Below, one piece after another: positions 2,230 through 6,067 of a stretch of 64,000 nucleotides of DNA. Where the stretch lies: the NCBI RefSeq assembly GCF_004078655.1, contig NZ_RZNC01000003.1:124001-188000 (forward strand). Direction: 5' to 3'. Numbering within the stretch: the stretch's first letter is position 1; every line of letters begins with the position of its first letter. Under the pieces are notes generated by a model. The model was not told the origin of the DNA, did not search any database, and saw only the letters and a list, made by a program, of their open reading frames with translations. This DNA is from Labedella populi. Its GTDB lineage: Bacteria > Actinomycetota > Actinomycetes > Actinomycetales > Microbacteriaceae. Both the position numbers and the translations under genes were made by a program.

Positions 2230-2862
2230 GTGGCGGAACCCGACGAGCAGCCGGCCGGCGTGGATCCTCGCGGACCGAGATCCGCCGACGTATTCCAGCG
2301 TTCCGAGGCCGTCGTCCTGATCGACGGACCGAGCGGCGCGGGAAAATCGACGTTCGCGTCGCGACTCGTGGGAGATTGGCCGGGACCGGTCGAGCCGATC
2401 CTCGTTCGCATGGACGACGTCTACCCCGGATGGGGCGGTCTCGACGCGGCTTCCGTCCAGGTGTTCCGGCACCTGCTCGTTCCGCGCTCGCACGGTGAGC
2501 CGGGGCGTTGGCGGCGCTACGACTGGGTGGGTGCGCGCCCGGCGGAGTGGCATGTCGTCGCGACGGGCCGTCCTCTCGTCGTTGAGGGCTGCGGGTCACT
2601 GTCCCGGGCGGCGGCGCCCCTCGCCGACCTGCGCGTCTGGATCGATGCGCCGGCGGAGGTCCGGAAGGATCGCGCCCTCGCCCGCGATGCGGGCGGATTC
2701 GACGAGCACTGGGACATGTGGTCGTCGCAGGTCGCGCGATTCGAGCGTCGAGAGGACCCCCGTTCGCTCGCCGACGTCGTGATCGTCAACGCGGACGGCG
2801 AAGCCGACGCCTGGCTCGACGCGGTGATCAGCGGGACTGCAGATCCTCGACGAAGGCCCTGA
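2230..2862 (+). CDS. P-loop nucleoside/uridine kinase-like ATP-binding protein
   Basis: A 210-residue cytoplasmic P-loop protein with Walker A GPSGAGKST at residues 33-41. It has a DDVYPGW segment typical of small uridine-kinase-like or AAA kinases, and an RVWIDAP strand followed by a basic lid (RKDRALARD). The reading frame is open far upstream, but the GTG at 2230, one base after the EcfT stop, gives the first plausible start and suggests co-transcription with the transporter. A salvage kinase for the imported compound is possible but not shown. Its last 35 bp overlap the convergent carboxypeptidase-like gene tail to tail. Confidence 0.75.
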   Translation: MAEPDEQPAGVDPRGPRSADVFQRSEAVVLIDGPSGAGKSTFASRLVGDWPGPVEPILVRMDDVYPGWGGLDAASVQVFRHLLVPRSHGEPGRWRRYDWVGARPAEWHVVATGRPLVVEGCGSLSRAAAPLADLRVWIDAPAEVRKDRALARDAGGFDEHWDMWSSQVARFERREDPRSLADVVIVNADGEADAWLDAVISGTADPRRRP

Positions 2863-4057
2863 TCACGGGAACCGGATGGGTGATCCTCCACAGCACGCCG
2901 GGGTCCTCGAGGCGTTCGTCGAGCTTCACCGGTGCCGTGGTCGTTCGGCCGCCGGCGGTGATCTCGGCGGACCCGACGATGCGCCCGGAGCCCCCCGTGA
3001 CGAGAGGGTCGAGTGTCGTCTCGATCGTGGGGGCCGACGAGACCCAGCGCGGGCTCGTCACGGATGCCCCGACGGAGGCCGTGACCGTCGGGCCCCACTC
3101 CGTGTCGTACCGCACGAGCGGTGTGCCCTCGGCGACCAGCGGGGCCTCGACGACGGCGGTCGACGCCTGCTCGGCCAGGGCGGTCACCGCCGTCTCGAGC
3201 GCGTCCCAGTCGGGCTGGCGCAGGATGGCGCCGTACAGCTCGTACGTCTCCTCGCCGACGTCGACGGAGAGCCGGAACAGGAGGCAGATCCCGGCCGCGT
3301 CGGTGTAGCTGCGGGAGATACCCGTGACGCCGAGCTCCGGGAGGTACGTGGTGGTGTTCTCGATGCCACGACGCGATGGGAGACCCGTCACCTCGCTCGC
3401 GAGGACGGAGGCCACCGCCGGGTCCGCGAGCGCGAGGGCCGCGACGGCCGCGAGGTCTTCCGCCGTCCCGACGCTCTCGGCGGAGAGACCCGTCGCGTCG
3501 GCGACGGTGATGCCGTCGAGACCGTTCCCATCGAGCCACGACCGGGCCGCGACGAGATACTCCTCGAGCGACCCGAATGCCCACCGCGCGAGCGTGTCCG
3601 CGTGGTTGTTGCTCGAACCGAGGAGCAGAGCCTGGAGCATCCCGCGCTCGCTCCACGCGTCGTCGGTGTACACCGTGACGGTTCGGGCTCCGGCTGCGCG
3701 GTAGTCGCGGTAGGTCAGGAAGTCGTTCGAGGTGATCGGGACGACTGCTCCCTCCTCATCGGCGGAGAGGGGACGGGCGTCGAGGACGACGAGGGCGGTG
3801 ATCACTTTCGTGGCGGCCGCCATCGGGACCGGCGCGGTGTCGCCGGCGACGGATATCGGGGAGTCCTCCGGGCGCTCGGTCACGGCGCTCGCACCGGTCT
3901 CGGGCAGAACGGGAGGGGACCCGGCCGGGGCGGCCGGTTCGAGGTGCGTGGCCCGTGCCTCCGGGAGGGGACCCAGGAGGGTCGCCGGCCCGTAGAGCCC
4001 GACCGCCAGGATGGCGAGGGTGCCGGCCGTGACGCCGATGAATCGCCTTACGCCCAC
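2828..4057 (-). CDS. D-alanyl-D-alanine carboxypeptidase-like protein (S11 fold) lacking catalytic residues
   Basis: A 409-residue protein with a short basic N-terminus and one membrane-spanning or signal segment (about residues 5-30), so the rest is probably extracytoplasmic. The body aligns by eye to S11 carboxypeptidases (DacA/DacC), which trim peptidoglycan stem peptides. The SxxK nucleophile motif reads AATK (Ala81 to Lys84, codons at 3806-3817). The SxN motif is kept (SSNN). The KTG box reads SRS within GISRSYTDAAG (about 3297-3325). Two of the three signature motifs are therefore lost and carboxypeptidase activity is unlikely. The frame is intact and codon use is normal, suggesting a conserved non-enzymatic role, perhaps peptidoglycan binding (inference). 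The start is GTG. Confidence 0.8.
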   Translation of the reverse strand: MGVRRFIGVTAGTLAILAVGLYGPATLLGPLPEARATHLEPAAPAGSPPVLPETGASAVTERPEDSPISVAGDTAPVPMAAATKVITALVVLDARPLSADEEGAVVPITSNDFLTYRDYRAAGARTVTVYTDDAWSERGMLQALLLGSSNNHADTLARWAFGSLEEYLVAARSWLDGNGLDGITVADATGLSAESVGTAEDLAAVAALALADPAVASVLASEVTGLPSRRGIENTTTYLPELGVTGISRSYTDAAGICLLFRLSVDVGEETYELYGAILRQPDWDALETAVTALAEQASTAVVEAPLVAEGTPLVRYDTEWGPTVTASVGASVTSPRWVSSAPTIETTLDPLVTGGSGRIVGSAEITAGGRTTTAPVKLDERLEDPGVLWRITHPVPVIRAFVEDLQSR

Positions 4058-4118: not shown

Positions 4119-4469
4119 TCAGCCCCACCCGAGTCGGTGCAATTCGTCGTCGTCGAGCCCGAAGTAGTGACCGATCTCATGGATGAGGGTCACCCGGATC
4201 TCCTCGCGCAGAGCGTCGAGGTCGCCGGCGTGATGCAAGAGCGGTTCCCGGTAGATGCTGATGGTGTCGGGAAGCTCACCGAACCCGTACTGACCGCGCT
4301 CGGTGAGTGCGACTCCGTGATACAGCCCGAGGAGGTCGAGGGAGCCGTCCTCCGGTCGGTCCTCGACGATGATGGCGACGTTGTCGAGGTCATCGACCAC
4401 GTCGTCGGGGAGCGTGTCGAAAACCTCCTCGACGAGGTCCTCGAAGTCGTCGGAGGTCATGTCGATCAC
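4119..4469 (-). CDS. Minimal zinc metallopeptidase family protein (DUF1025-like, HExxH)
   Basis: A small acidic protein of about 116 residues ending in HEIGHYFGLDDDEL. This is the HExxHxxG zinc motif of single-domain minigluzincin-type metallopeptidases, common in Actinobacteria. No signal peptide is visible. I chose the GTG at 4469: a TAGGAT box with an embedded AGGA lies 8-9 nt before it. The frame also has a GTG at 4493 and an ATG at 4460. It lies between the carboxypeptidase-like gene and the Ser/Thr kinase, all on the same strand. The substrate is unknown. Confidence 0.85.
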   Translation of the reverse strand: MIDMTSDDFEDLVEEVFDTLPDDVVDDLDNVAIIVEDRPEDGSLDLLGLYHGVALTERGQYGFGELPDTISIYREPLLHHAGDLDALREEIRVTLIHEIGHYFGLDDDELHRLGWG

Positions 4470-4519
4470 GGTCACCGATCCTAGCCGCGCCACCTGCGCG
4501 GCTCGGCGCGGTCCCAGCC

Positions 4520-6067
<1,548 letters not shown>

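Follow-up and report, generated by a model that had tools for sequence, protein, structure and literature searches.

Penicillin-binding-protein folds are usually viewed as enzymes and drug targets. In S11 enzymes the KTG box binds the terminal carboxylate of the substrate and takes part in catalysis, and its loss should abolish carboxypeptidase turnover. The catalytic boxes are intact in PBP5 and PBP6 (DacA and DacC) of Escherichia coli and in the K15 enzyme of Streptomyces; PBP5 is anchored by a C-terminal helix. Dead peptidoglycan hydrolase folds are also found which have been kept as activators or scaffolds, such as the LytM factors EnvC and NlpD and the muramidase domain of SpmX. PBP2B of Bacillus subtilis belongs to a class of penicillin-binding proteins other than S11. 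Excerpts of one study assign to it, once its transpeptidase is inactivated, a structural role that does not depend on catalysis (PMC5656894). According to excerpts of another study, Rv3330 (DacB1) and Rv2911 (DacB2) of Mycobacterium tuberculosis have strictly conserved core catalytic residues and no C-terminal domain of the PBP5 type, and the helix of Rv3330 is C-terminal (PMC4281109). Here we describe an S11 homologue of Labedella populi (Microbacteriaceae) in which both the catalytic Ser and the KTG box have been replaced. It is found in a stretch of 64,000 nucleotides, which we call the window (assembly GCF_004078655.1, contig NZ_RZNC01000003.1, positions 124,001 to 188,000 of the forward strand). 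The gene and its boxes have the following positions in the window:

2828..4057, minus strand: coding sequence of the KTG-less Peptidase_S11 protein, a putative pseudoenzyme of 409 amino acids (open reading frame; PF00768, 48.4 bits; AlphaFold model with a predicted local distance difference test score, pLDDT, of 93.0 and a predicted template modelling score, pTM, of 0.84)
3806..3817, minus strand: former SxxK box, now AATK (residues 81-84), Ser lost and Lys kept (codons read directly and alignment)
3608..3616, minus strand: SxN box, kept as SSN (residues 148-150; codons and alignments, including solved structures)
3308..3316, minus strand: former KTG box, now SRS (residues 248-250; codons and alignments, including solved structures)

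The open reading frame has a GTG start and no stop inside it, so that the frame is indeed intact over 409 codons, as the preliminary description of this DNA had stated. PF00768 (Peptidase_S11) matches residues 75-261 with E 1.1e-12, and the score is above the curated cut-off of 27.6 bits. Among the residues required of an S11 D,D-carboxypeptidase, Lys84 and S148-S149-N150 are present; the Ser (now Ala81) and KTG (now S248-R249-S250) are absent. Codons and alignments thus bear out the motifs that had been read at first: AATK in place of SxxK and SRS in place of KTG, with SSN kept, as well as YTDAAG directly after SRS. The register of the motifs was obtained in two ways. In the alignment with paralogues, the KTG-bearing copies read PIASITK, SANN and KTGTTDxAG in the same positions; in three printed alignments with solved S11 proteins, compared by eye, SxxK, SxN and KTG share columns with the clade profile. 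Both agree, which rules out a misalignment of the motifs. The same replacements are found in three other Labedella genomes.

Named genomes were scanned and 125 relatives found; the motifs were read in the 80 best of these, to which all counts out of 80 given below refer. The search patterns included LLGSS and WAFG, the start codons were chosen by script as those nearest to the start of the query, and two loci (L091 and L127) are truncated at the end of a contig. These homologues carry 14 genus names. KTG is absent in all 80, where we find SRS (61 cases), TRS (8), SLS (6), SNS (2), ARS (2) and VRG (1). At residue 81 there are 45 cases of G, 21 of S and 14 of A, so that Ser is absent in 59. Both the SxxK Lys and SxN persist in 80 of 80, a count which for SxN is partly built in by the patterns. 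Close homologues could have been expected to show Ser and KTG throughout, had the change been restricted to one strain, and this is not the case: the same loss in the Labedella genomes and the lack of KTG in every homologue rule out a strain mutation or a sequencing error. The loss of Ser and KTG proposed at the outset is therefore true of the query; in the clade, the defining loss is only that of KTG, as Ser persists in about a quarter of the homologues. One homologue out of 80, in Cryobacterium breve ERMR7:08 (L123), is split in two frames, either by a true lesion or by an assembly error.

A second set, which overlaps with the first, comprises the genome of the window and 35 other genomes of the family, and was searched without sequence patterns. 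An S11 homologue is present in 29 of these 36 genomes and a KTG-less copy in 14; in all 14 copies Ser is also absent. Nine of the 14 genomes have a second S11 gene with Ser, Lys and KTG intact. The remaining five are four Labedella and one further genome (G004), and in them the KTG-less gene is the sole PF00768 match. The KTG-bearing homologues, 43 rows in total (29, two of them identical, plus 14), keep Ser, Lys and KTG without exception; their SxN box varies in some cases (SAC, SAG, SSS, SAS, SGS). In other families of the same order, none of 23 genomes had a match to the query at E 0.001. A search for the KTG-less gene outside the family with the clade profile (E 1e-15) had hits in 10 genomes among 119 of the order, two of them outside Microbacteriaceae, and all four matches in those two genomes keep Ser and KTG. 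Two KTG-less copies of the second set are peculiar. L012 (genome G020) has R for the Lys of SxxK, DSG for SxN and YRG for KTG, with an open frame and its zincin locus, which will be discussed below, retained. L035 (genome G010) has long insertions rich in Ala, Gly and Thr, one of them right after the former KTG strand.

In a tree calculated without the motif columns, a single branch with support 100 divides the 60 KTG-less rows from the 28 KTG-bearing ones. This tree has 88 rows, with close relatives thinned to 46 of the 80 loci and L001, L002 and L037 dropped as duplicates. A second tree of 79 rows, also thinned (L030 and L141 are among those left out), includes an out-group taken from a different family; here too the 39 KTG-less rows form one branch (support 100), next to the KTG-bearing proteins of the family. 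On the tree the loss of KTG is one change, and the presence of Ser demands at least seven changes in the first tree and at least six in the second. The simplest account of the sequences would be a single loss of KTG in the ancestor of the clade, with a variable Ser position. Ser may have been lost repeatedly, or lost early and then regained; the trees fit both.

The KTG-less gene is under purifying selection. In 15 pairs of close KTG-less homologues the ratio of nonsynonymous to synonymous substitution rates (dN/dS, simple counting method) is 0.060-0.234, although the ratios are rough in the four pairs with dS 0.88-0.94. These values rule out a pseudogene.

The predicted structure shows no sign of decay either. 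The AlphaFold model was built with 45 rows of the clade, and the following parts can be distinguished in it:

3974..4051, minus strand: N-terminal hydrophobic helix, residues 3-28, predicted to serve as signal peptide or signal anchor, with unusually high conservation within the clade (model)
3149..3889, minus strand: S11 (DD-peptidase) domain, residues 57-303 (alignment to the Streptomyces K15 DD-transpeptidase)
2903..3148, minus strand: C-terminal beta domain, residues 304-385 (strands E302 to E379 of the model; alignments to PBP5 and Staphylococcus aureus PBP4 reach residues 378-388)
2834..2896, minus strand: C-terminal helical stretch, residues 388-408 (helices 388-393 and 395-408 of the model; hydrophobic moment 0.46 in residues 395-408)

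The best solved match of the whole model is E. coli PBP5, with a Z score of 27.6 and a root-mean-square deviation (rmsd) of 7.6 over 332 residues. The S11 domain alone is closer to Streptomyces K15 (Z 25.2-25.6, rmsd 2.4-2.5, 241-245 residues). All 50 PDB entries listed, with Z values from 22.0 to 27.6, are D,D-peptidases or penicillin-binding proteins, together with one designed hydrolase. The fold is thus predicted to be intact and PBP5-like. The loss of KTG as one event common to the clade, the purifying selection and the intact predicted fold together mean that the idea of a pseudoenzyme, instead of simple decay, survives.

The conservation of sequence was compared in 62 KTG-less and 41 KTG-bearing rows; there is kinship within the rows, and a wrong start in L035 lowers the KTG-less value. 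The mean identity of the KTG-less proteins is 0.46 for the whole protein, 0.64 for residues 8-34 (the helix and its juxtamembrane stretch) and 0.78 for the neighbourhood of SxN. In the KTG-bearing paralogues the N-terminal stretch has 0.27, compared with 0.375 for the whole protein, and the three motif neighbourhoods have 0.57, 0.48 and 0.59. The same opposition is apparent in the 11 genomes with both copies, where the values for the N-terminal stretch and the whole protein are 0.48 and 0.40 in the KTG-less copy, 0.35 and 0.46 in the KTG-bearing one. Several residues are nearly fixed only in the KTG-less clade (62 rows): G12, G20 and W135 in all of them, I16 in 61, R125, H152 and S250 in 60. 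H152 and S250 adjoin the old boxes in sequence. The neighbourhoods of SxxK and KTG, divided by the value of the whole protein, give 1.24 and 1.25 in the KTG-less proteins and 1.51 and 1.57 in the paralogues; set against the protein as a whole, the former boxes would therefore be less constrained than in the paralogues, but not free. The N-terminal helix probably inserts in the membrane, as judged from its sequence: over stretches of 19 residues, hydropathy within residues 1-60 peaks at 1.64, only just above a usual membrane threshold. Such a sharpened helix and a set of new fixed residues are not expected from the mere loss of an enzyme, and they are our main ground for a role tethered to the membrane and in contact with a partner.

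We favour, with moderate confidence, the view that these proteins are a clade-wide pseudoenzyme of Microbacteriaceae which works as a scaffold or regulator of peptidoglycan metabolism, probably tethered to the membrane. Its parts do not have the same strength. The reading as a pseudoenzyme, with catalytic motifs lost throughout the clade and the gene maintained, is well supported by sequence, phylogeny, selection and predicted fold. We infer the absence of catalysis in the Labedella protein itself from its motifs and, more loosely, its role in peptidoglycan metabolism. The lineage would descend from a duplicated S11 D,D-carboxypeptidase. Its ancestor would have lost KTG, which is now mostly SRS, and this loss may have made Ser dispensable, so that S, A or G now stands in its place. 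What would have been retained is the fold, along with the SxxK Lys, SxN and the C-terminal domain. The conserved N-terminal helix would hold the protein in the membrane, facing the wall, and would contact a membrane partner; the protein would thus be a non-catalytic scaffold or regulator of peptidoglycan enzymes, with a remodelled cleft that might hold a wall ligand or a loop of the partner. Since Ser is also gone in Labedella, no covalent chemistry is expected at that site. A bolder version, which we consider rather unlikely, is a membrane-embedded regulator so far seen only in Microbacteriaceae: its remodelled cleft would read wall precursors or active penicillin-binding proteins and act through the conserved N-terminal helix, and in Labedella it would have outlived every active S11 enzyme.

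The D,D-carboxypeptidase reaction would be supplied by other enzymes, of the S13 family and, in nine of the 14 genomes, also by a KTG-bearing S11 protein; as these can supply it, the KTG-less protein would be released for a scaffolding or regulatory role. The genome of the window (G000; 3.42 Mb in 15 contigs, completeness 100) has a single PF00768 match. It also has two strong S13 genes, with boxes STMK, SDN and KSG (G000 C10:45945-47057) and STLK, SDN and KTG (C1:918237-919388). S13 matches are present in the 13 other genomes which carry the KTG-less gene; their boxes were read in the window genome only. By the places of the matches, there are two strong S13 genes in each of the three other Labedella and one in seven of the 10 other genomes checked. 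The second S13 gene of Labedella may have taken the place of the active S11 enzyme that is missing. Another frame of 532 amino acids in the window genome (L049, G000 C2, near 131167) has a weak S13 match of 20.3 bits with STSK and SDN boxes; its C-terminal end is SH3-like by eye, and it is perhaps a penicillin-binding-like protein. The two S13 genes and this weak match rule out the KTG-less gene as the only carboxypeptidase of the cell. There are also four PF00144 matches in this genome, one of which (L053, G000 C1:427946-428683) has the boxes STYK, SDN and KTG; by eye it resembles a class A beta-lactamase.

Two neighbours on the same strand are found upstream of the gene:

4119..4493, minus strand: Zincin_1 (PF06262) metallopeptidase homologue, a conserved upstream neighbour, probably in one operon with the KTG-less gene (103.9 bits)
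4520..6067, minus strand: Ser/Thr kinase gene, a neighbour only in Labedella and outside the system (PF00069, 145.2 bits)

In 78 of the 80 loci the zincin gene immediately precedes the KTG-less gene on the same strand; the gap has a median of 25.5 bp and is at most 100 bp in 71 of these 78. The other two are L127, where the start of the contig cuts the locus, and L086, without a match within its flanks. In 67 of the 80 loci a P-loop kinase gene is convergent downstream, at less than 2 kb. The Ser/Thr kinase appears within the fetched flanks of two loci, both from Labedella, and also in the four Labedella genomes of the set of 36; this rules out a system of kinase and pseudoenzyme as a conserved unit. 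The kinase has a low-complexity C-terminal tail with repeated PEAPA and GNGN. The preliminary description had placed the gene near a kinase and a zinc protease on one strand. The arrangement is correct, but the kinase is specific to the genus and gives weak functional evidence; it is the zincin gene which is conserved.

No zincin match was found in the fetched flanks of KTG-bearing homologues. Where genomes are taken to lack the KTG-less gene at this place, 26 zincin loci were fetched and no KTG-less protein was found within 1.5 kb of them. The matches of zincin and P-loop kinase abut in G007, G026 and G009, the first two of which have no KTG-less gene there; other zincin loci without the gene have DNA in between, or no P-loop kinase was found. 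As the two neighbours adjoin without it, the gene seems to have been gained or lost within a neighbourhood that is stable. In G009 there is a KTG-less copy (L013) away from the zincin locus, whose usual place (L151) is empty.

Several observations weigh against the scaffold or regulator that we favour. Zincin is found in 22 of the 23 genomes (one from another family) where the gene is presumed absent from this place, and thus does not seem to depend on it. Ser is kept in 21 of the 80 homologues, and Lys and SxN in all of them, so that residual acylation, for example by a beta-lactam, is possible in those with Ser. One copy out of 14 in the pattern-free set (L012) has no SxN or Lys either. The neighbourhoods of the old SxxK and KTG boxes are still above the mean (0.58 each, compared with 0.46). 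The helix is another weak point: hydropathy reaches 2.0 at residue 202, inside the S11 domain, which is above the N-terminal value, and in 41 of the 80 proteins there is an inner stretch of at least 1.6, so that hydropathy fails to single out the helix. An AxA motif like those of signal peptidase follows it in 58 of the 80, and the helix may be cleaved off; judged by its sequence, it may be a signal peptide under constraint for export. No partner gene was found, and no search was aimed at a partner gene or at a co-occurring family.

The alternative that survives best, which we still consider unlikely, is a binder or sensor of wall ligands. The cleft would hold a ligand (stem peptide, wall polymer or beta-lactam) without turnover and signal its occupancy through the conserved helix; in contrast with the scaffold or regulator, the ligand and not a protein partner would be the point. 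It would agree with Lys and SxN being kept in 80 of 80 (with the same reservation for SxN), and with H152, R125, R230 and R249, conserved in 60, 60, 54 and 54 of 62 rows. However, the KTG that holds the carboxylate is gone, and R249 is replaced by L or N in eight of the 80, so that no fixed new residue takes the place of the box. Even the active S11 catalytic domains of Rv2911 and Rv3330 bind peptidoglycan weakly, according to the excerpts of their study (PMC4281109).

A retooled enzyme is improbable. The Lys of SxxK, the Ser of SxN or the new Ser of SRS would run another reaction, and it is true that K84 and S148 are kept in 80 of 80 and S250 in 60 of 62 rows; excerpts of a study on another family describe how the supposed pseudokinases SelO and SidJ catalyse other transferase reactions (PMC10211241). 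Against such a change, the first position of SRS may be S, T, A or V, L012 has neither Lys nor SxN, no complete alternative set is invariant, and among the matches listed in the literature no switch of this kind was found in the S11 family. We give even less credit to the idea that the proteins, or at least those with Ser, remain ordinary D,D-carboxypeptidases by means of a non-canonical site: the 21 of 80 which keep Ser lack KTG, the Labedella protein lacks both, and in the window genome two S13 genes with intact boxes could serve the reaction. A decaying gene or a sequencing error has a negligible probability, as the one broken frame (L123, out of 80 loci) stands against a loss common to four Labedella genomes and many genera, with dN/dS 0.06-0.23 in 15 pairs.

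The pseudoenzyme we favour has a practical consequence. As the Pfam match is above its cut-off, an annotation pipeline that relies on this match would label the protein as D-alanyl-D-alanine carboxypeptidase, which is probably wrong. The clade, with 14 genera, KTG lost and purifying selection, offers a natural test of the roles that a penicillin-binding-protein fold may have beyond catalysis, and the orthologues which keep Ser allow the loss of Ser and the loss of KTG to be separated. In the open-licence literature we found no description of a KTG-less S11 lineage among the matches listed, which is no proof of novelty.

The closest known proteins are the KTG-bearing S11 paralogues of Microbacteriaceae (L015-L034 and L036-L044). 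They have 313-466 amino acids, most of them about 400, and 25-40% identity to the query, with which they can be aligned over most of their length. They differ from it by the presence of SxxK and KTG in 29 of 29 and of SxN in most, by the lack of zincin in the fetched flanks and by an N-terminal stretch with below-average conservation. PBP5 and PBP6 of E. coli and K15 of Streptomyces share the fold of the query with an identity of 14-19%; the anchor of PBP5 is C-terminal, whereas that of the query is probably N-terminal. Rv3330 and Rv2911 are actinobacterial S11 proteins like the query. PBP2B, as described in the excerpts used here, is a precedent for a penicillin-binding protein required apart from its catalysis, but it is a laboratory mutant of a division protein and not a natural S11 pseudoenzyme. 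EnvC, NlpD and SpmX have folds and families different from those of the query. Pseudoenzymes in penicillin-binding-protein families are a known kind, of which the KTG-less S11 clade would be a further variant, clade-wide and tractable.

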